64,000 nucleotides of DNA from Dysgonomonas sp. Marseille-P4361 (GTDB lineage Bacteria > Bacteroidota > Bacteroidia > Bacteroidales > Dysgonomonadaceae). The notes beneath the pieces are model-generated. The model ran no database searches, was not told the DNA's origin, and saw only the letters and a list, made by a program, of their open reading frames with translations. Shown piece after piece: positions 11,070 through 21,980 of the stretch. The stretch covers positions 496,001 through 560,000 of the forward strand of contig NZ_OPYL01000002.1 of NCBI RefSeq assembly GCF_900343125.1. Reading direction: 5' to 3'. Numbering within the stretch: the first letter of the stretch is position 1; each line of letters starts with the position of its first letter. A program made the position numbers and the translations under genes.

Positions 11070-11100
11070 TTTGTATTTGTGAAAAAATGGAATAACTTTG
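11070..11100 (+). promoter_or_regulatory. Promoter of the leucine operon
   Basis: TTTG (11070-11073), a 19-base spacer, and TAACTTTG (11093-11100) match the Bacteroidetes TTTG-N19-21-TAnnTTTG consensus. Predicted start of transcription is about 11107, 16 bases before the leader-peptide ATG. Confidence 0.7.
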
Positions 11101-11122
11101 TCAATTGTATAATTGAAACGAT

Positions 11123-11200
11123 ATGTCAACTCATAGTAATATTATTCTTAGCTCACTCATTATCCTCTGGAAAAACTTTGGGGTGAGTATTGCTATGTAG
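11123..11200 (+). CDS. Branched-chain amino-acid leader peptide (attenuator)
   Basis: A 25-codon reading frame, ATG 11123 to TAG 11198-11200, reads MSTHSNIILSSLIILWKNFG then VSIAM. Nine of 25 codons are branched-chain: five Ile, three Leu, one Val, clustered as Ile-Ile-Leu (11141-11149) and Leu-Ile-Ile-Leu (11156-11167). It sits between a promoter and an intrinsic terminator directly ahead of leuA. The codon content and position are those of leader peptides in which ribosome stalling on scarce charged tRNA-Leu/Ile lifts termination. It has no other visible function. Translation is inferred. Confidence 0.75.
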   Translation: MSTHSNIILSSLIILWKNFGVSIAM

Positions 11201-11263
11201 TTACTAGTATAAAGGATAAAGCAAAGCCTTTCTCACTCTTAGGTAGATGAGAAAGGCTTTTTT
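11151..11263 (+). promoter_or_regulatory. Transcription attenuator of the leu operon (alternative hairpins)
   Basis: GCTCACTC (11151-11158, inside the leader codons) can pair with GGGTGAGT (11181-11188). GGGGTGAG (11180-11187) can instead pair with CTCACTCT (11232-11239), extended imperfectly by 11189-11197 with 11222-11230; this blocks the terminator. The terminator is AAAGCCTTTCTCA (11223-11235) with TGAGAAAGGCTTT (11248-11260), 13 perfect pairs, then T to 11263. A ribosome stalled at the Leu-Ile-Ile-Leu codons would cover the first CTCACTC and free GGGTGAG for the antiterminator; one reaching the stop codon would cover GGGTGAG and allow termination. Confidence 0.75.
11223..11263 (+). terminator. 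Attenuator terminator ahead of leuA
   Basis: A 13-bp perfect stem with a 12-base loop followed by TTTTTT, 40 bases upstream of the leuA ATG and in the same transcription direction. A terminator at this place makes sense only as a conditional one. Confidence 0.85.
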
Positions 11264-11303
11264 GTTTGATATAAATTAAATATTAATATAATAATAAAGT
11301 GTT

Positions 11304-12794
11304 ATGGACAAATTATTTATTTTCGACACCACATTGAGAGATGGAGAACAAGTTCCTGGTTGCCAGTTGAATACAATTGAGAAAATTGAGGTAGCTAAAG
11401 CACTCGAATCGCTCGGTGTTGATGTAATCGAAGCAGGATTTCCGGTTTCAAGTCCAGGAGACTTTAATTCCGTAGTGGAAATCTCCAAAGCTGTTACATG
11501 GCCTACAATATGTGCATTGACCCGTGCGGTAGAAAAAGATATAGAAGTAGCAGCCGAAGCGCTTAAATATGCTAAGAATAAGCGTATACATACGGGTATA
11601 GGTACTTCGGAGTATCACATAAAATATAAATTCAATTCTACACAAGACGAAATTATAGAAAGAGCTATAGCAGCGGTGAAATATGCGAAACGTTTTGTAG
11701 AAGATGTTGAATTTTATGCCGAAGATGCAGGTCGTACCGATAATGAATATTTAGCTCGTGTTGTTCAGGCTGTAATTAATGCAGGGGCAACAGTGGTCAA
11801 TATTCCGGATACTACTGGCTATTGCCTTCCTACTGAATATGGAGCAAAAATTAAATATTTGATAGATAATGTGGATATGAAGAAAGCGATTCTTTCTACA
11901 CACTGTCATCAAGATTTAGGTATGGCTACAGCTAACTCTATCATGGGAGTATTAAATGGAGCCCGTCAGGTAGAAGTTACAATCAACGGAATAGGGGAGC
12001 GTGCCGGAAATACATCTTTGGAAGAAGTGGTAATGGCAATCAAGAGCCACAAAGAATTGAATATTGAGACTAATATCAATACTCAGCGAATCTATCCTAC
12101 AAGCCGTATGATTTCAAGCCTAATGAATATGCCAGTACAGCCTAATAAGGCAATTGTGGGGCGCAATGCATTTGCACACTCTTCAGGTATTCATCAGGAT
12201 GGCGTGTTGAAAAATCTATCAACTTACGAAATTATTGATCCGAAAGAAGTTGGTATTGATGATAATGCAATTGTATTAACTGCACGTAGTGGACGCGCGG
12301 CATTGAAGAATAGACTAAACTTACTGAATATAGAAGTTACCGAAGATCAGCTTGCTGAAATTTACCAACGTTTCCTTGAATTGGCAGATAAGAAGAAAGA
12401 TATAACAGATGAAGATATCTTAATCTTGGCAGGAAAAGAAACAAATCAGATGCATCGTATCAAACTTGATTTTATGCAGGTAACTTCAGGTATCGGTGTA
12501 AAATGTATAGGTGTAGTCGGTTTGGATATTGCAGGGGAGAAATTCCAGGCATCGGCCACCGGTAATGGTCCGGTAGATGCAGGGATTAAGGCTGTAAAAG
12601 AAATCATAAAACGACAAATGGTTATCGAGGAATTCCTTATTCAGGCTATAAACAAAGGTAGTGATGATACAGGAAAAGTACATATGCAGGTATCGCACGA
12701 GGGAGTTATTTATTACGGTTTCTCGGCAAATACAGATATAGTTGTAGCTTCTGTTGAGGCATTTATCAACGCAGTCAATAAATTCACGATTTAA
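11304..12794 (+). CDS. leuA: 2-isopropylmalate synthase
   Basis: A 496-residue cytoplasmic enzyme that condenses acetyl-CoA with 2-oxoisovalerate, the first committed step of leucine synthesis. The DRE-TIM barrel starts [19 protein letters not shown], continues with [12 protein letters not shown], the metal-binding HCHQDLGMA and [13 protein letters not shown], and HSSGIHQDG. The C-terminal allosteric domain for leucine feedback (about residues 380-496) is complete, ending in the [17 protein letters not shown] helix. First gene of the leu cluster, 40 bases after the attenuator terminator; 34 bases separate it from leuC. Confidence 0.96.
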
Positions 12795-12828: not shown

Positions 12829-14223
12829 ATGAAAACATTATTCGACAAAATATGGGATGCACATACCGTGTCATCTGTAGAAAATGGGCCTACGCAGTTG
12901 TATATAGATCGTCATTTTTGTCATGAAGTGACAAGCCCTCAAGCTTTCAATGGGTTAAGAACAAGGGGTTTGAAAGTGTTTCGCCCAGATAGGACAACAA
13001 TAACAGCAGACCATAATACACCGACTATAAATCAGGATCAACCTATAAAGGATGCCATTTCAAAGAATCAATTGGATACCTTATCTAAAAATGCAGAGGA
13101 GTTTGGAATAAAAATGTTTTATCCTTTAGGTCATCAAAAGAATGGTGTTGTTCATATCATTGGACCTGAGAATGGTTTTACTCAACCTGGGATGACTATT
13201 GTTTGTGGCGATAGCCATACCTCTACACATGGAGCTTTTGGTGCTATCGCTTTCGGTATTGGTACTAGCGAGGTGGAAATGGTATTAGCTTCTCAATGTA
13301 TTTTGCAAACCCGTCCTAAAACGATGCGCATAACCTTTAACGGAAAATTAAGGGAAGGTGTGACAGCTAAAGACTTGGCTCTTTACATGATCTCTAAATT
13401 GACAACTGGAGGAGCAACAGGCTATTTTGTCGAATATGCGGGAGAAGCTGTTCGCAATATGTCGATGGAAGAGCGTATGACTCTTTGTAACTTAAGTATT
13501 GAAATGGGTGCTCGCGGAGGATTAGTTGCTCCGGATGAAACTACATTTGCTTATGTTAAAGGTCGAGAATTTGCTCCTAAAGGTGAGGAATGGGATAAAG
13601 CACTAGCCTATTGGAAAACGTTGAAAACGGATGAAGGTGCTAAATTTGATAAAGAACTAAGCTTTGATGCAGCGGACATACAACCAATGATCACTTATGG
13701 AACCAATCCTGGTATGGGAATGGCTATAAATGATACAATCCCAACCCTTGAAGATATTGATGAAGCAGGTCGTATATCTTTCCAAAAATCGATGGATTAT
13801 ATGGGCTTCAAACCGGGAGAAAAAGTTGAAGGGAAATCAATCGACTATGTTTTCTTAGGCAGTTGTACCAATGGTCGTATTGAAGATTTTCGTATGTTTG
13901 CTAACTTTGTAAAAGGAAAGAAAAAAGCTGATAACGTTGTTGCTTGGTTAGTTCCAGGGAGCTGGATGGTAGAAAAACAGATTCGTGAAGAAGGTTTATA
14001 TGATATCCTAAAAGACGCAGGCTTTGAACTTCGTCAACCGGGTTGTTCTGCATGTTTAGCTATGAATGACGATAAAGTTCCTGCAGGAAAATATGCAGTA
14101 TCTACATCGAATCGTAATTTTGAAGGACGTCAAGGACCAGGTGCACGCACTATATTGGCAGGTCCTTTGGTAGCTGCTGCTGCTGCCGTGACCGGGAAAA
14201 TAACAGATCCTCGTAATTTCTAA
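12829..14223 (+). CDS. leuC: 3-isopropylmalate dehydratase large subunit
   Basis: A 464-residue aconitase-family protein that isomerises 2- to 3-isopropylmalate with LeuD. The [4Fe-4S] ligands are visible: Cys346 in [11 protein letters not shown] and Cys406 and Cys409 in [11 protein letters not shown]. The N-terminus ([27 protein letters not shown]) and [19 protein letters not shown] are typical. It lies between leuA and leuD with short gaps and should act in the same transcript. Confidence 0.97.
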
Positions 14224-14242
14224 CCATCAAAAACAAATAAAA

Positions 14243-14836
14243 ATGGAAAAATTTCAAACATTAACATCAACATATGTACCTCTACCAATCGAGAATGTAG
14301 ATACAGATCAAATTATACCTGCACGTTTCCTTAAAGCAACAAATAAGGATGGTTTTGGAGATAATCTCTTTGCAGACTGGAGATATAATAAGGATGGAAG
14401 TCCGAAAGAAGACTTTGTCTTAAATAATCCTACCTACAGTGGTGAGATCTTGGTTGCAGGAAAAAATTTTGGTAGCGGATCGAGTAGGGAACATGCTGCA
14501 TGGGCAGTAGCAGGATATGGATTTAAGGCTGTGGTATCTAGTTTTTTCGCTGATATTTTCAAAAATAATGCATTGAACAACGGGGTTCTTCCTGTAATCG
14601 TTTCTCCAGAGTTTCTATCTGAAATATTTAACAGTGTAAATAATAATCCGAAGTCAACATTGACAATCGATCTTGAAAAGCAAACTATAACGAATAACGA
14701 AACAGATAAGACTGAAAACTTCGAGATCAACCCTTATAAAAAAGAATGTTTGTTGATGGGGTTAGATGATATTGATTATTTATTATCTAAAAAAGACCTG
14801 ACCACGAAATTTGAAGAAGAACGTTCATTTCAATAA
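14243..14836 (+). CDS. leuD: 3-isopropylmalate dehydratase small subunit
   Basis: A 197-residue swivel-domain partner of LeuC. It has the characteristic [14 protein letters not shown] near the N-terminus and [16 protein letters not shown] followed by [18 protein letters not shown]. Length is normal for the family. It starts 19 bases after leuC and ends 14 bases before the GH127 gene, so the operon appears to read straight into the glycosidase. Confidence 0.97.
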
Positions 14837-14850
14837 GACATATTGTATCT

Positions 14851-17316
14851 ATGAATAGAAAAATACTATCTCTCTTTTGTTTACTGGGAATAGCTACGCT
14901 AAGCAGTCATTCCCAGCAACTGATTCCAGTATCTTTTGACAAAGTAAACCTTCATGATGAGTTTTGGAGTAATCGGATAAAACTACAGAAGGACGTTTTA
15001 GTGCCTGTCGCTTTTGATCGTACAGAGATAGCTGTTGAGGACCTTAGGCGTACAGCAAATTATTTGAAAGGCACAGAAAGTCCGCTACCATCCGATAGCA
15101 GATTTAGCACATCCGATCTTTTTAAGGTGATAGAGGGTGCTGCTTATCTCTTGAAGATGGAAAGAGATACTAAGCTAGAGAAGCAAATAGATGATATAGC
15201 TGTTATAATTGCAGAAGCTCAACAAAAAGACGGATATTTATATCCTCCACACATAACAGGATCATACAAGACTGCTCCTCTGTGGGGTGGTGCCGGAATG
15301 GGAGATAAACCCTATTCATGGGTAGTCCATAGTCATGAATTATATAATGTCGGACATTTGTATGAAGCAGCTGCTGCCTATTATCAGGCAACAGGAAAGA
15401 GGAATCTTCTTGATATTGCAGAGAAGAGTGCTAAACATATAAACAAAGTATTCTTCGAGGGTGATCCGAATTATAATAATGGAATTCCTGTCAATCAGGC
15501 TCCGGGGCACCAAGAGATAGAATTAGCTTTGGTAAAACTCTATCGTGTAACAAACAACCCTCTTTATCTTGATATGGCAAAGAAATTTGTTGATGTTAGA
15601 GGCGTAACTTATATTCCCGATGGAGAAGGAACTATGTCTCCTGAATATGCTCAACAGCATGCACCCGTTAGAGAGCAAGATGAAGCGGTAGGACACTCGG
15701 TTCGTGCAGTTTATCTTTATTCAGCTATGGCAGATGTAGGGGCTCAGACTAATGATCCTACACTAAGTCCTGCTCTTGATGAGATTTGGCACAATATTGT
15801 CGATACGCGTATGCATATTACGGGAGGATTGGGAGCTATTCATGGCATTGAAGGCTTTGGTCCAGAATATGAATTACCGAATAAAGAAGCATATAATGAG
15901 ACTTGTGCCGCTGTAGGTAATGTGTTTTTCAATCATCGCATGTTCTTATTAGAGAAAGATGGGAAATATATGGATGTGGCTGAGGTTTCATTGTTGAATA
16001 ATGTATTGGCGGGAGTGAACCTTGAAGGGAATAAATTCTTTTATGTCAATCCTCTCGAATCTTCAGGTATGGTCGATCGTTCTCATTGGTTTGGAACAGC
16101 TTGTTGCCCTACCAATATGGCGCGTTTGGTACCTCAGGTTTCGGGTCTGATGTATGCTCATACTGATAATGAAATTTATTGTGCTTTTTATACAGGGAGT
16201 TCTACTGACTTTGAACTAAAATCAGGAAAAGTTTCATTGGTTCAAGAGACGGAATATCCTTTTGATGAAACTATTAAAATAACAGTCAATCCTGAGAAAC
16301 AGAATCAAAAGTTCGCGCTCAAAATGAGAATTCCTACATGGACAGGATCTCAATTTGTACCGGGTAAACTGTATAATTATATAGACAATAATGTACAGAG
16401 ATGGGAGGTTAATATTAATGGGAAGAAACAAAATGATCTTTTATTAGATAAAGGTTTTCTTTCTATCAATAGAAAGTGGAAAAAAGGAGATGTGGTAGAA
16501 CTAAGATTGCCTATGCCGGTTCGTTATTCTCATGCAATAGAGGAAGTAAAAGCAGATAACGGACGTGTTGCTATCACTCGTGGTCCATTAGTGTATTGTG
16601 CTGAAGGTATAGATAATGAAGGAGGTACAGATCGCTATTTTATTGAAAATATAGAAGCTAATCCAGTAATAACTAAGGAAAAGTCGAGTCTATTAAAAGG
16701 GATAGATTTTATAAAAGGTATTCCAGCTAAATATCTCGATAATAAGGGTGTTGTGCATGAGTCTGAATTAACATTAGTTCCCTACTATGCATGGAATAAT
16801 AGAGGTGTTTCTTCTATGAATATCTGGTTTGCAGAGAGTGAGGATGTTGCTAAACAAGGACTGAACTTTATGCCTTTAATCTTATCAGACGTTAAAGCTT
16901 CGCATACGAATGGAGGTGAGGATGTATTATCTATTGTAAATGGAAAATACCCAAAACATTCATTCGATAATGAAATTGAACGTTGGACTTCATGGAATCA
17001 AAAAGGCAAAAAACAATCGATTGATTTTACATTTGAAAAACCAACAGATCTGAAAGCTTTTTCTGTCTACTGGTATGATGATAAAGGTGGTGTTCAGATT
17101 CCAGAATCGTGGAATTTAGAATTTAAGGATAATAATGGAGATTGGAAAGCTTTTCCTCTCTATTCTACAGACTCTTATAGTCTGCTGAAAGATCAATTTA
17201 ATTTGGTTCATTCCGATGGAGACTCTTTCATAATAAAGGAGCTTCGTCTTAATATGACACCTAAAAAAGATAATGCAGTAGGAGTTTTGCAAGTAAAATT
17301 TGATACAGCTAACTAG
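14851..17316 (+). CDS. GH127-like (DUF1680) glycosidase, exported
   Basis: An 821-residue protein with a signal peptide (about residues 1-21, ending SSHSQ) and a long six-hairpin (alpha/alpha)6-type catalytic region. The zinc-thiolate and nucleophile residues known from the beta-L-arabinofuranosidase HypBA1 have counterparts: Glu350 and Cys352 in YNETCAAVGN and Cys418-Cys419 in GTACCPTNMARL. The C-terminal 130 residues (NGKYPKHSFDNEIERWTSW onward) look like a discoidin-type carbohydrate-binding domain. The expected activity is cleavage of beta-L-arabinofuranosides, but the family also has other specificities. Oddly, it lies inside the leucine operon, 14 bases after leuD and 30 before the second synthase. 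Confidence 0.88.
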   Translation: MNRKILSLFCLLGIATLSSHSQQLIPVSFDKVNLHDEFWSNRIKLQKDVLVPVAFDRTEIAVEDLRRTANYLKGTESPLPSDSRFSTSDLFKVIEGAAYLLKMERDTKLEKQIDDIAVIIAEAQQKDGYLYPPHITGSYKTAPLWGGAGMGDKPYSWVVHSHELYNVGHLYEAAAAYYQATGKRNLLDIAEKSAKHINKVFFEGDPNYNNGIPVNQAPGHQEIELALVKLYRVTNNPLYLDMAKKFVDVRGVTYIPDGEGTMSPEYAQQHAPVREQDEAVGHSVRAVYLYSAMADVGAQTNDPTLSPALDEIWHNIVDTRMHITGGLGAIHGIEGFGPEYELPNKEAYNETCAAVGNVFFNHRMFLLEKDGKYMDVAEVSLLNNVLAGVNLEGNKFFYVNPLESSGMVDRSHWFGTACCPTNMARLVPQVSGLMYAHTDNEIYCAFYTGSSTDFELKSGKVSLVQETEYPFDETIKITVNPEKQNQKFALKMRIPTWTGSQFVPGKLYNYIDNNVQRWEVNINGKKQNDLLLDKGFLSINRKWKKGDVVELRLPMPVRYSHAIEEVKADNGRVAITRGPLVYCAEGIDNEGGTDRYFIENIEANPVITKEKSSLLKGIDFIKGIPAKYLDNKGVVHESELTLVPYYAWNNRGVSSMNIWFAESEDVAKQGLNFMPLILSDVKASHTNGGEDVLSIVNGKYPKHSFDNEIERWTSWNQKGKKQSIDFTFEKPTDLKAFSVYWYDDKGGVQIPESWNLEFKDNNGDWKAFPLYSTDSYSLLKDQFNLVHSDGDSFIIKELRLNMTPKKDNAVGVLQVKFDTAN

Positions 17317-17346
17317 TTACTGGTATCGTTTCAAAAAGAAAAGCCT

Positions 17347-18855
17347 ATGATAGAAATAATGGATACAACCCTTCGTGATGGAGAACAAACAGCTACAGTT
17401 TCGTTCTCTACACAAGAGAAGATGAGCATAACATACTTACTCGTTGAACTGGGGGTTAATCGTATAGAGATTACTTCAGCACGGGTATCGGAGGGCGAAT
17501 TTGAGGCAGTCAAGAAAATTGCGGATTGGGCTCGCCAAACTGATAATATAGATAAGATTGAGATTCTAGGTTTTATAGATAAAGGGCAGTCTGTAGATTG
17601 GATAAAAAAAGCTGGTTGCAAGACTATAAACCTGCTGACAAAAGGCTCTTATAAGCATGTAACAGAACAGCTCAGAAAGACTCCGGAGCAACATTTGGAA
17701 GATATAAAACGAGAGGTTTTGTATGCGAATGAGTCAGGCATTACAGTTAATATATACTTGGAAGATTGGTCGAATGGAATTATACATTCCGAAGACTATG
17801 TCTATTTCTTGATGGATGGACTGAAAGATTTACCTATCAAACGATTTATGCTTCCCGATACATTGGGAATTTTAAATCCGCATAGTACGTGGAGAACTTG
17901 TCGTAGAATGATCAGTCGCTATCCTGATCTCCATTTCGATTTTCATGCACATAATGATTATGATTTGGCGGTAGCCAATACGATGGTTGCAGCCGAGGTA
18001 GGAGTGAAGGGTATTCATACGACGATGAATGGTCTTGGAGAACGTGCTGGTAACGCTTCATTAGCAAGTGTTATAGCCGTATTTCACGATCAGTTAAATC
18101 TGAAAACATCTATCAAAGAGGAATCTATCAATATGGTAAGTCGTATGGTAGAGTCTTATTCGGGGCAGGTCATCTCAGCAAATCAACCTATTGTAGGAGA
18201 AAATGTCTTTACTCAATGTGCCGGAATTCATGCAGATGGAGACAATAAAAATAATCTGTATTTCAACGAGTTGTTTCCGGAACGCTTTGGGCGTATTCGC
18301 GAATATGCATTAGGAAAGCTTTCGGGTAAAGCGAATATTCGTAAGAATATCGAGGCCTTAGGTATCGATTTAGATGAGCCAGATATGCTGAAAGTTACCA
18401 ATCGTGTAACGGAATTAGGAGATAAAAAAGAAATTATAACTCAAGATGATCTTCCATACATTATTGCAGATGTCCTGAAAAATAATGAAAAAGAGAAACG
18501 TATCAAGATACTCTCTTTTGCTTTTGTATTGACTAAAGGATTACGACCTACTGCAACCGTAAAAATAGAGATAGATGGACAAGAACATGAGTGGACAGCT
18601 CCGGGAGATGGACAATACCATGCATTTTCGAAGGCTCTCTATAAAATATATACACGTCTGAATAAACCAACACCGACATTAACGAACTATACGGTTTATA
18701 TTCCACCAGGAGGACGTACTGATGCTTTAGTGCAGACTGTTATAACTTGGGAGTTCAAAGGAAAAACCTTTAAAACAAGAGGTCTTGATGCCGACCAGAC
18801 AGAGGCTGCTGTAAAAGCAACAGAAAAGATGTTGAATATTATAGAAGATATGTAA
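17347..18855 (+). CDS. Second LeuA/CimA-family synthase, candidate (R)-citramalate synthase
   Basis: A 502-residue DRE-TIM metallolyase with a C-terminal LeuA-type regulatory domain (about 385-502, ending TEAAVKATEKMLNIIEDM). The barrel begins [19 protein letters not shown] and has HAHNDYDLAVAN and GLGERAGNASLASV. Its substrate region differs from LeuA: IEITSARVSEGEF replaces [12 protein letters not shown]. In Bacteroidales a second synthase of this kind commonly sits with leuACDB. Citramalate synthase (acetyl-CoA plus pyruvate, feeding isoleucine through LeuCD and LeuB) is my preferred reading, but the sequence does not prove it; a second isopropylmalate synthase is the alternative. Confidence 0.75.
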   Translation: MIEIMDTTLRDGEQTATVSFSTQEKMSITYLLVELGVNRIEITSARVSEGEFEAVKKIADWARQTDNIDKIEILGFIDKGQSVDWIKKAGCKTINLLTKGSYKHVTEQLRKTPEQHLEDIKREVLYANESGITVNIYLEDWSNGIIHSEDYVYFLMDGLKDLPIKRFMLPDTLGILNPHSTWRTCRRMISRYPDLHFDFHAHNDYDLAVANTMVAAEVGVKGIHTTMNGLGERAGNASLASVIAVFHDQLNLKTSIKEESINMVSRMVESYSGQVISANQPIVGENVFTQCAGIHADGDNKNNLYFNELFPERFGRIREYALGKLSGKANIRKNIEALGIDLDEPDMLKVTNRVTELGDKKEIITQDDLPYIIADVLKNNEKEKRIKILSFAFVLTKGLRPTATVKIEIDGQEHEWTAPGDGQYHAFSKALYKIYTRLNKPTPTLTNYTVYIPPGGRTDALVQTVITWEFKGKTFKTRGLDADQTEAAVKATEKMLNIIEDM

Positions 18856-18886
18856 GGAATATCAAGTATAGTTTTGGATAATTAAT

Positions 18887-20902
18887 ATGAAAGGATATAT
18901 AAAGAGACTTCTTAATGACAAGTTTATTCGATGTCTATTATTTATATTGGTAGCTTATTTGGCTATCCTCTTTTTCTTGTTTCTTTCCAGATGTGCCTTT
19001 TTTATTTCTAATTGGGATGCTGTCGATGCTATTGATAGTTCTATAAAACAGCTCTATATTCTAATAGCTTTTCGTAGAGGTTTAAGATTTGATAGTGTAA
19101 TAGCAAGTTATATCTCTTTAATTCCGCTGATAGTCATATTCTTGTTTGCACAGTTCAGACGATTGAATAAGGTGATATTAAAAATAATTCTGATATATTA
19201 TATAGTATGTGGATTTGGTATATTAGCAATCTCTATGGCAAATATACCATACTATTTGTATTTCAATAAACATATTGATACTTCTGTTTTTCAATGGTTT
19301 GAATATTTTAGTGAAACTTTTGGAATGGTAGCAGAAGAATCATCATACCTAATTTATATTCTATCTTTTGTTTGCTTGTTTTCTTTATATGTATTCTTGT
19401 TTACCAGGCTGTATAAGCTTACAATAAGAGAGGAAGAAGATAAGCAATATAATGGGAAATATTATCTCATAAACAGTGCTGTTTTAGTCTTTTTATTTCT
19501 TTTTTTTGTAGGAGGTACTTATGGATTCTTCCCTGGAGGATTAAAAAGAAAGCATTCTATATTTTGTGGTGAAATTATCCTTTGTAATGCAGTGATGAAT
19601 CCTGTGTTCTTTCTTACAGACTTGCCTGCTTCGATGAAAATAGATCGATTGATAGATGAAGAAACTGCAATAAAGAATATTGGTAAAGAATTAGGTTTTG
19701 ATATATCTAAGGATATATATATAAATAAGGCTGTTGAAAATGATACTATAATGAATAGACCAAATATTGTTATTGTGTATATGGAGTCGTTTTCTAGTAA
19801 ATATTTGGAAACGAAAGGTAAAAATGGAGATTTTGTTACTCCTTATATACAGGAACTTAAAGATAAATCATATTTTTTCAAAAAGTTTTATTCACAAGGT
19901 ACGCATACCAACCAAGCTATAACATCAGCACTATATAGTCTTCCAGCTTTCTTTGACAAAGTTATGACAACGAAAACAAATATGAAGTTGGACTTTGAAA
20001 AATATGCAATGGATCAGTTTGATGAGTTGAGAAAAAAATCATTAACATTATACGGATTACCTAATGAACTGAAAAACCAAGGATACTATAGTCAAATGTT
20101 TGTAACACATACAAAAACATATGAAAACTTTGACTATTTCGCTGTTCAAAATGAAATAGATAAAGTGTATGGCCTTGAAGATTATCCAGATGCGAAGCCT
20201 ACCAGTGTTTGGGGTATTTCTGATGAAGATTTATTGAAAAATGCATTGGAAAAGATAGATTCTATATCGAAAGAAAATATTCCATCTATGACTGCTATTC
20301 TAACTATCAGTAATCATCCTCCTTATATCTATACCGAACAGTTTAAAAATGTATCAGTAAATAAGGACGAAAGGGCTGTTGCATATATGGATGATTGTAT
20401 CAAGAACTTTATGAAAGAAGCCAGTGAAAAAGAGTGGTTTAATAATACGATCTTTGTCTTTTTGGGCGATCATGGACGTAATTTCTCGTCAGACCTCCAA
20501 GAATATAACTACCCATTGTCTCTTAACCATGTCCCTCTGATTATCTATTCACCACTGTTTGAGGGTATGCCTCAGCATAACTCTTCATTAATGGGGCAAA
20601 TAGATTTTTATCCTGTAATAATGGGTTTGTTAGGAAAAACGCCAACATATAATACGTTTGGAGTAGATGTCTTATCTAAGGAAAGAAAGTATATCTATTT
20701 CACATCAGACAGCAAACTTGCCTGTATGAGTAACGATTATCTCTATAATTATGATTTTACTTACGATAGCGAGTTTTTATATAGACTGGATGATGAAACA
20801 TATGAAAATATTTTGGAGGAAAATGTAGCTGTGGCAGATAGTATGAAAAACTATGCAACATCAATGATTAGAGGTGTAAAATATATTTTAAAAAATAACT
20901 AA
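18887..20902 (+). CDS. LtaS/OpgB-like membrane sulfatase-family phosphoglycerol transferase
   Basis: A 671-residue protein with about five membrane segments in the first 215 residues ([18 protein letters not shown]-like and similar) and an extracytoplasmic alkaline-phosphatase/sulfatase domain (about 295-620). Domain motifs are [14 protein letters not shown] (metal-binding Glu), GTHTNQAIT with the probable catalytic Thr339 or Thr341, and FLGDHGRN late in the domain. Lipoteichoic-acid synthases of this fold transfer glycerophosphate; in Gram-negatives relatives modify glucans or lipopolysaccharide. The acceptor here is unknown. It stands between the second synthase and leuB, 4 bases from leuB, so it belongs to the leu transcript. 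Confidence 0.85.
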
Positions 20903-20906
20903 CGAT

Positions 20907-21980
20907 ATGAAGTTAAATATTGCTGTTCTTCCCGGAGATGGGATTGGTCCTGAAATAATAGGACAAGCTTTGCGTGTTATCGAAGCCGTATGTGAAAAGT
21001 ATGGACATGATTTGTCTTATGAATATGGATTAGTAGGGGCTACGGCTATCGATCAAGTAGGTAATCCTTACCCTGAAGGTACACACGAACTGTGTATGAC
21101 TTCAGATGCGGTTCTTTTTGGTGCAATAGGAGATCCTAAATACGATAATAATCCATCTGCTAAAGTACGTCCCGAGCAAGGACTTTTGGCAATGAGAAAG
21201 AAACTAGGTTTGTATGCGAACTTACGTCCGGTAACAACATTTCCTTCTCTTATTCATAAATCTCCTTTGCGTGCAGACTTGATTGAGGGAGCAGATTTTA
21301 TGTGTGTAAGAGAATTAACAGGAGGCCTATACTTCGGTCGTCCTCAAGGACGTAGCGAAGATGGCAATACAGCTTATGATACATGTGTTTATACTCGCGA
21401 AGAAGTAGAGAGAATCTTACATCTTTCATATAAGTATGCGCGTATGCGTCGCAAGAAACTGACCGTTGTCGATAAAGCGAATGTATTAGCTTCTTCCCGT
21501 TTGTGGAGACAAGTAGCTCAGGAAATAGAGAAAGAGTATCCCGATGTTGAAACCGAATATATGTTTGTGGATAATGCAGCAATGCAGATTATTCAATGGC
21601 CAAAACGCTTCGATGTCCTAGTGACAGAAAATCTATTTGGAGATATCCTGACCGATGAAGCTTCTGTTATCACAGGATCATTAGGAATGTTGCCTTCTGC
21701 TTCGATCGGAATTCATACATCTGTCTTTGAACCAATTCATGGATCTTACCCTCAGGCAGCCGGTAAAAATATCGCAAATCCATTAGCAACAATTCTGTCA
21801 GCGGCAATGATGTTTGAGTACGCTTTCGAATTGCAAGAGGAGGGAAGCCTGATACGTAGAGCTGTAGCTGCATCTATGGAGGCTGGTATAGTAACGGAAG
21901 ATATTGCTTCGGGAGATGTTAAAGCTTCTTCGACTTCCGAAGTCGGAGATTGGATTGTCAATTATGTAAAAGAGCAGTAA
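20907..21980 (+). CDS. leuB: 3-isopropylmalate dehydrogenase
   Basis: A 357-residue NAD-dependent beta-decarboxylating dehydrogenase. Motifs: [17 protein letters not shown] at the start, [15 protein letters not shown], the metal-binding [22 protein letters not shown], and the nucleotide-binding [19 protein letters not shown]. It catalyses the last-but-one leucine step and, with a citramalate synthase, can also serve isoleucine. Last gene of the cluster, followed by a very strong terminator. Confidence 0.97.

Follow-up and report, generated by a model that had tools for sequence, protein, structure and literature searches.

The leucine operon of Dysgonomonas sp. Marseille-P4361 is very probably preceded by a classical ribosome-mediated transcription attenuator, which would control the leu(-cimA) operon; we put the probability of this reading at a little over nine in ten. 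Support comes from a leader frame that is open in each of 64 aligned leaders, from compensatory changes in the antiterminator, and from a promoter motif present in 47 of 60 leaders. A sequence-only reading of this DNA had named conservation of the short frame and compensatory changes in relatives among its checks; both of these were run, and both came out in its favor.

Here, the window is the whole 64,000-nucleotide stretch of DNA that was analysed, taken from a genome of 3.3 Mb. Read 5' to 3', the region upstream of the operon holds a TTTG-N19-TAACTTTG promoter, a 25-codon frame that contains GGGGTGAG, a 13-bp terminator with a T-rich tail, and then leuA. The features are these.

11070..11100, plus strand: Bacteroidota-type promoter, with a -33 TTTG at 11070-11073 and a -7 TAACTTTG at 11093-11100 (motif match)
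11123..11200, plus strand: leader reading frame, 25 codons, MSTHSNIILSSLIILWKNFGVSIAM, stop TAG (translation; leader frames conserved in relatives)
11132..11158, plus strand: segment 1, CATAGTAATA at 11132-11141 and CTCACTC at 11152-11158, predicted to pair with segment 2 and the stretch just 3' of it (folding)
11141..11149, plus strand: first control-codon cluster, Ile-Ile-Leu (ATT ATT CTT) (sequence)
11156..11167, plus strand: second control-codon cluster, Leu-Ile-Ile-Leu (CTC ATT ATC CTC) (sequence, comparison)
11180..11187, plus strand: segment 2, GGGGTGAG, antiterminator 5' arm (comparison, folding)
11223..11239, plus strand: segment 3, AAAGCCTTTCTCACTCT, terminator 5' arm, which includes the antiterminator 3' arm CTCACTCT at 11232-11239 (comparison)
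11248..11268, plus strand: segment 4, terminator 3' arm TGAGAAAGGCTTT at 11248-11260 and T-rich tail (comparison, folding)
11304..12794, plus strand: leuA, 2-isopropylmalate synthase, first structural gene (TIGR00973, 649.6 bits, cut-off 598.7)
12829..21980, plus strand: remaining genes of the presumed operon, leuC through leuB (NCBIfam, spacing, strand)
14851-17316, plus strand: glycoside-hydrolase-like gene (NCBIfam match below the model cut-off)
17347-18855, plus strand: citramalate-synthase-like gene (best NCBIfam match 649.6 bits against a cut-off of 950)
18887-20902, plus strand: sulfatase/LtaS-like gene (NCBIfam match below the model cut-off)
20907-21980, plus strand: leuB, last gene of the presumed operon

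The leader and its operon

The genes run in the order leuA, leuC, leuD, glycoside-hydrolase-like, citramalate-synthase-like, sulfatase/LtaS-like, leuB, and are presumed from spacing and strand to be co-transcribed. The glycoside-hydrolase-like gene, for which we take GH127 to be the label, and the LtaS-like sulfatase gene are insertions: the first separates leuD from the cimA-like gene, and the second separates the cimA-like gene from leuB. In the same genome the ilv cluster (L184) seems, by eye, likewise to be interrupted by unrelated genes between ilv genes. The product of the citramalate-synthase-like gene has Leptospira citramalate synthase as its top sequence match in the PDB.

The consensus for promoters in Bacteroidetes is TTTG-N~20-TAnnTTTG. 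The sequence-only reading had placed a consensus promoter ahead of the frame, and the motif is found there, with a 19-nt spacer between its two boxes. In the window alone this is weak evidence (6 matches against 2.92 expected, with 9 of 100 shuffles reaching 6). Comparison speaks more strongly: 47 of 60 leaders carry TAnnTTTG in the 75 nt that precede their ATG, where 4.1 would be expected. The transcript is expected to start near 11105-11108. A scan for sigma-70 promoters found 6 against 5.6 expected, not above chance; the same scanner detected no terminator, probably because its loops are limited to 3-8.

The 25-codon frame proposed at the outset, with nine Ile/Leu/Val codons, is found at 11123-11200, and the nine are five Ile, three Leu and one Val. 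Seven of the 12 control-codon positions encode one of these three amino acids, a number that none of 200 shuffles reaches. From the end of the second cluster, at 11167, to the 8-nt antiterminator arm is a distance of 12 nt.

The 13-bp terminator, described earlier as overlapping a second copy of CTCACTC, was also recovered. Its predicted stem pairs 11223-11235 with 11248-11260 at all 13 positions (-20 kcal/mol, z -5.37) and ends 43 nt before the leuA start. The two copies of CTCACTC (11152-11158 and 11232-11238) and the GGGTGAG that is complementary to both (11181-11187) all lie where they had been reported, but the complementarity, then called exact, is not strictly so: one pair is G.U.

The 1:2 hairpin extends farther upstream than had been seen, with CATAGTAATA at 11132-11141 opposite TATTGCTATG at 11188-11197. 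It is present in the minimum-free-energy structure of the window, and segment-2 bases pair upstream in single-sequence folds. Its region is modestly stable (z -1.11 in the window, a mean of -2.08 over 64 rows), and alifold on the 64-row alignment gave no consensus helix there. For the window's own antiterminator stretch, folding is barely better than for shuffles (z -0.79).

Comparison across leuA loci

A scan of genome contigs gave 590 leuA loci, of which the best 80 were compared; within that set the closest relative of the window's LeuA is that of Dysgonomonas sp. PF1-14 (94%). A script scanned the 270 nt that precede leuA for a stem combined with a T-tract and a CC[TC]3 arm, and found it in 64 of the 80 loci and in the window. 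One locus (L020) was dropped because it has no leader frame, and alignment A1 therefore holds 63 loci and the window, 64 rows in all. Terminator, antiterminator and leader frame are, accordingly, retained in 63 of the 80 other leuA loci. Two of the 17 loci outside A1 (L025, L045) have too little upstream sequence; in the remaining 15, with 370-450 nt of it, the element was not found by the script and frame check. Its presence and absence imply 10 state changes on a tree of 81 LeuA proteins.

Pairs were counted against the stated structures, because alifold on the MAFFT alignment returned only part of the terminator. The antiterminator is paired in 89.6% of cells over the 64 rows, against 81.9% after shuffling (none of 500 shuffles is as high), and pairing drops to 37-62% when the partner is slid. 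Cells changed on both sides number 42, against 13.3 in shuffled alignments, and 0 of 500 shuffles reach 42. Counted instead as pairs with both-side change, the number is 6, which is not unusual (144 of 500 shuffles reach it). For the terminator, 92.3% of cells are paired, against 40-67% when slid, and 45 are changed on both sides, against 14.5 shuffled.

The variants of segments 2 and 3 illustrate how the two co-vary: GGAAGTGAG/CTCACTTCC, GGGTGAGA/TCTCACCC, AAGCGAG/CTCGCTT, GAGTGAG/CTCACTC and CAAGTGAG/CTCACTTG. Column 187 changes from A to G in 10 rows, with the matching C in segment 2 in nine and in the terminator arm in seven. This change is matched on two sides because segment 3 is shared by both helices. 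Just one or two changes on the LeuA tree suffice for each antiterminator pair that varies. This, in turn, means that the rows are not independent, and the strength of the evidence lies in the number of different pairs.

One stretch of the terminator arm, CCTTTCTCAC (11227-11236 and its homologues), is nearly invariant over the 64 rows, more so than pairing alone seems to require. Its CCTTTCT also resembles the 3' end of 16S rRNA.

By one fixed rule, an ATG-started frame crosses the control region in all 64 rows, and the mean number of Ile/Leu/Val codons is 7.8 of 12, against 1.13 in shuffles (sd 0.22); some such leader frame turns up in 37% of shuffled sequences. A different and stricter frame rule finds a leader frame in 61 of 65 rows. 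Counted back from segment 2 (60-61 of the 65 rows), the share of Ile/Leu/Val is 92, 89, 85 and 66% at codons -8 to -5, and only 7% at codon -4. This abrupt edge, five codons before the antiterminator arm, would correspond to about one ribosome front. Across the rows, the last base of the stop codon lies from -9 to +24 nt relative to the start of segment 2; the one exception, L059 at +31 nt, is a row where the rule took the wrong frame.

Codon choice inside the leaders is also distinctive. Over 60 leaders, CTA makes up 77 of 261 Leu codons (29.5%) against 41 of 1973 in leuA (2.1%), where it is the rarest Leu codon of the genes compared, and ATT makes up 81% of leader Ile codons against 41% in leuA. 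No CTA occurs in the window's own leader, which uses CTT once and CTC twice for Leu; CTC is the rarest Leu codon (4.8%) in 14 window genes. Base-pairing constraint and relatedness could lie behind part of this bias.

These patterns bear on a rival reading in which the attenuator senses the general speed of translation, and not leucine or isoleucine in particular. The nine Ile/Leu/Val codons are, after all, of several kinds, and Ser, Trp and Lys codons also occur in the frame. But a general sensor does not account for a share of these amino acids that is high (66-92%) exactly at the stalling positions and collapses one codon on, nor for the enrichment of the rare CUA, nor for ilv, thr, trp and his leaders of the same phylum or genome that carry codons of their own pathways. 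It is very unlikely, although it survives best among the rivals.

A closer view comes from 40 stretches of Dysgonomonas genomes, which a script classed as 22 leu (23 with the window) and 18 ilvD. In four of the leu stretches (L202, L203, L207, L220) the best frame given by the script is a different one; the leader can be seen in the sequence of L202, L203 and L207. By eye, the first CTCACTC copy is exact only in the window and L207 among the 23 leu rows; 14 have TTCACTC, and the other seven have other letters or no leader stretch at this position. As an exact sequence, then, the first copy is not kept. Also by eye, 19 of the 22 leu relatives stop at the TGA inside the GGGTGAG motif; the frames of L196 and L234 continue past it, and the L220 stretch does not include this position. 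Owing to a single additional G ahead of GGGTGAG, the window's frame passes the stop used by most of the genus and continues to TAG. The stop lies in or directly after segment 2 in each visible leu row.

Mechanism, rivals and known systems

The features by which an attenuator is recognized can be read from sequence and comparison: a leader frame with cognate codons, a predicted terminator before the first gene, a mutually exclusive antiterminator that co-varies, control codons spaced one ribosome front ahead of segment 2, and a stop in or near segment 2. From these, we infer the start of transcription, translation of the leader, stalling and read-through.

RNA polymerase would start near 11107, and a ribosome would follow at the leader ATG at 11123. 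Should charged tRNA-Leu and tRNA-Ile be plentiful, the ribosome would reach the stop and cover segment 2 (11180-11187), or would release and let segments 1 and 2 pair. With segment 2 occupied, segment 3 would pair with segment 4, and transcription would end near 11263. Should either amino acid be scarce, the ribosome would stall on the control codons, the last of which is the CTC at 11165-11167, with its front at about 11177. The stalled ribosome would hold segment 1, and the free segment 2 could form 8 bp with segment 3 before segment 4 has been transcribed. With that antiterminator formed, the polymerase would read into leuA.

The spacing suits this scheme. The front of a ribosome lies about 15 nt beyond the first P-site base. 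A ribosome stalled with 11165-11167 (Leu) in its A site would leave the RNA exposed from about 11178 onward, just short of segment 2 (11180); one that has reached the stop codon (11198-11200) would hide segment 2.

Leader-peptide attenuation is textbook in Proteobacteria, where the enterobacterial leuLABCD and ilvGMEDA operons are controlled in this way, and where the E. coli leuL leader carries rare CUA Leu codons. The element described here resembles these in its short leader with control codons, its mutually exclusive hairpins and its terminator directly before the first gene; the rare CUA codons in leaders of this family recall leuL. It differs in its Bacteroidota promoter, its compact 1-2-3-4 layout and its CCTTTCTCAC terminator arm, and in an operon that holds a citramalate-synthase homologue.

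Riboswitches and T-boxes, of course, also use terminator-antiterminator pairs, and the leader region here is structured. The element might then be a leader of this kind, binding a ligand or a tRNA and using the same terminator, with the short frame incidental. Yet no Rfam 15 family reached its gathering score, whether in the window, in the 17 leu loci searched or in a further 19 ilv/thr/trp/his loci, and the 8 weak matches are all far below the cut-offs. Moreover, what is conserved ahead of segment 2 is a run of Ile/Leu codons ending at a fixed distance, alifold found no consensus helix there, and related thr and trp leaders carry Thr/Ile and Trp codons instead. A leader of this kind is accordingly very improbable, slightly more so than a sensor of translation speed. 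About as improbable is the reading in which the terminator is constitutive and the short transcript ending at 11263 acts mainly as a small RNA or through a trans-acting leader peptide: the predicted terminator is strong and the leader peptide peTrpL has been reported to act in trans (PMC7298713, in the part consulted), but a constitutive terminator needs neither a co-varying antiterminator nor a fixed ribosome spacing, and leuA follows immediately after the element in each of the 20 family loci that score best.

The Bacteroid-trp motif (RF01692) contains Trp codons and is probably an attenuator, and the Termite-leu motif (RF01730) lies upstream of leucine genes. In Table 1 of one survey they appear as a Bacteroidetes cis-regulatory motif and as a termite hindgut entry, respectively (PMC2864571). 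Bacteroid-trp belongs to a different operon and has no gathering-score match to the window or to the 17 leu or 19 ilv/thr/trp/his loci. Termite-leu was considered as the same element and set aside, with no gathering-score match in the 17 leu loci. Several of the compared loci look, from their isolate names, like termite-gut MAGs.

Attenuators in Bacteroidetes/Chlorobi are reportedly mentioned in the abstract of Vitreschak et al. from 2004. In 2010 the authors of a survey wrote, in the part consulted, that they knew of no such system demonstrated beyond Proteobacteria and Actinobacteria, apart from ermC, prior to their own Firmicutes case (PMC2965389). The sections seen of a B. thetaiotaomicron map describe short ORFs in long 5' UTRs as reminiscent of leader peptides (PMC7366714). 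For Flavobacterium psychrophilum, of the same phylum but another lineage (Flavobacteria), the accessible part of one study speaks of "strong clues" that leader-peptide attenuation operates ahead of operons for amino-acid biosynthesis, and of structured 5' elements without Rfam matches, for example before pheA and hisG; the leu operon is not named in that part (PMC9723704). The sequence-only reading was unsure whether the mechanism had been described in Bacteroidetes. It is, thus, not wholly undescribed there, and no leu attenuator from Bacteroidota was found among the open-licence literature matches listed.

Sister leaders and the amino acids they sense

LeuCDB can serve the leucine pathway and also, starting from citramalate, the isoleucine pathway. 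A citramalate-synthase homologue within the operon makes both isoleucine and leucine plausible signals, and would explain the mixture of Ile and Leu codons in the leader. It is present in 23 of 25 genomes of the genus. A missing threonine route to isoleucine was considered as the reason for the Ile codons and rejected, as the window's genome has a strong ilvA match (496 bits). Dual sensing, drawn from the leader codons and the citramalate-synthase homologue, is a reasonable inference and, given that ilvA, stays one. Across the genus the threonine route is patchy: a strong ilvA match (above 480 bits) occurs in only 7 of 25 Dysgonomonas genomes, the window's own among them.

To follow the element further, a covariance model, R1, was built from alignment A1, with the terminator as its only helix. 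At E<0.001 it matches two places in the window's genome, before leuA and before ilvD (E 1.8e-7); the first match holds by construction, the window being a training row, and the ilvD copy is independent. R1 has a match in 93 of the 101 family genomes (60 of the 62 good ones), in at least 114 of 393 order genomes and in at least 34 of 395 phylum genomes. The last two counts are lower bounds, since strict filters were used, with 9 candidates scored per genome, and left 279 and 361 genomes without a match; the window's own genome is counted in all three sets.

The 20 best-scoring family loci and L111-L115 all precede leuA. Among the weaker phylum loci, L116-L139, 21 of 24 precede ilvD, ilvE, ilvA, an acetolactate-synthase small-subunit-like gene, thrA or trpE, as judged from BLAST or from how the following gene begins (L123, L133 and L137 fall outside the 21). 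Their leaders are rich in Ile/Val, in Thr/Ile (MTINNTTIITIITTG) or in Trp (INWWWWNSV). NCBIfam, run on 8 of the 21 genes, confirmed seven, with that of L121, cut by the locus end, an aspartate kinase; the small-subunit-like gene of L118 had no NCBIfam match at 1e-60.

The ilvD sister attenuator (L084, G000:C6:403540-403662; also L184), which the sequence-only reading did not include, has the leader MTNCFLHILILDILLVEQNR. Its segment 2 reads TGAGAAAGG in 18 of 18 stretches from relatives and TGAGGAAGG in the window's genome. This is nearly a copy of the terminator 3' arm, which means that segments 2 and 4 would compete with nearly the same letters. Two leader-like elements are likewise additions. 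One, upstream of a trpB confirmed by NCBIfam (L087, G000:C8:86068, R1 E 0.099), has the Trp-codon leader MTILLTNKAWWWRSQLSKS, a terminator and 8-bp complementary segments. The other (L174, G000:C8 226500-229000) has His codons, with MHHHHHFLLSTGK from the shortest start, a terminator and 7-bp complementary segments, before a gene whose start looks HisG-like by eye. It came from a search that gave 23 pattern places; 11 regions spanning 14 of them were examined, and one, that before the hisG-like gene, is a short ORF with at least four consecutive His codons. No leader was seen in about 300 nt upstream of thrA in the window's genome. R1 matches at E<=1 number 8 in this genome; one of them, which was discarded, falls on the strand opposite the leu terminator, and beside four others (L086, L088, L089, L090; E 0.027-0.63) no recognizable amino-acid gene was seen.

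In five of six loci chosen for two adjacent matches or an extra terminator, two units of leader ORF and terminator stand in series before ilv genes. The genes are ilvD-like at L188 and L189, ilvE-like at L191 and L193, and small-subunit-like at L192; L190 shows the arrangement partly, with no second terminator above score. The two leaders are nearly identical at L191, which has a further terminator upstream, and differ in others of the tandem loci. Among the literature matches listed for tandem attenuators with leader peptides, Salmonella mgtCBR is the one with the term in its title.

The regulation of amino-acid synthesis in Bacteroidota, major bacteria of gut and environment, seems, to our knowledge, little studied. 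The leu element offers a concrete and testable rule for how leucine and isoleucine synthesis would respond to supply, and is a further RNA element that no Rfam 15 family matched. The mechanism is classic, of course; a conserved leu example from Bacteroidota is not catalogued in the sources searched. The same architecture recurs with other codons before ilv, thr and trp operons. The balance tips slightly toward a broader view, in which leader-peptide attenuation is a main control of amino-acid operons in Bacteroidota (leu, ilv, thr, trp, his), with a shared architecture and swapped codons; leu-cimA would then be a dual Leu/Ile sensor, and some ilv operons would carry two serial attenuators with their own leaders, giving multiplicative or combinational control. 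The leader family would also provide a natural series on ribosome spacing and rare-codon sensing outside Proteobacteria.
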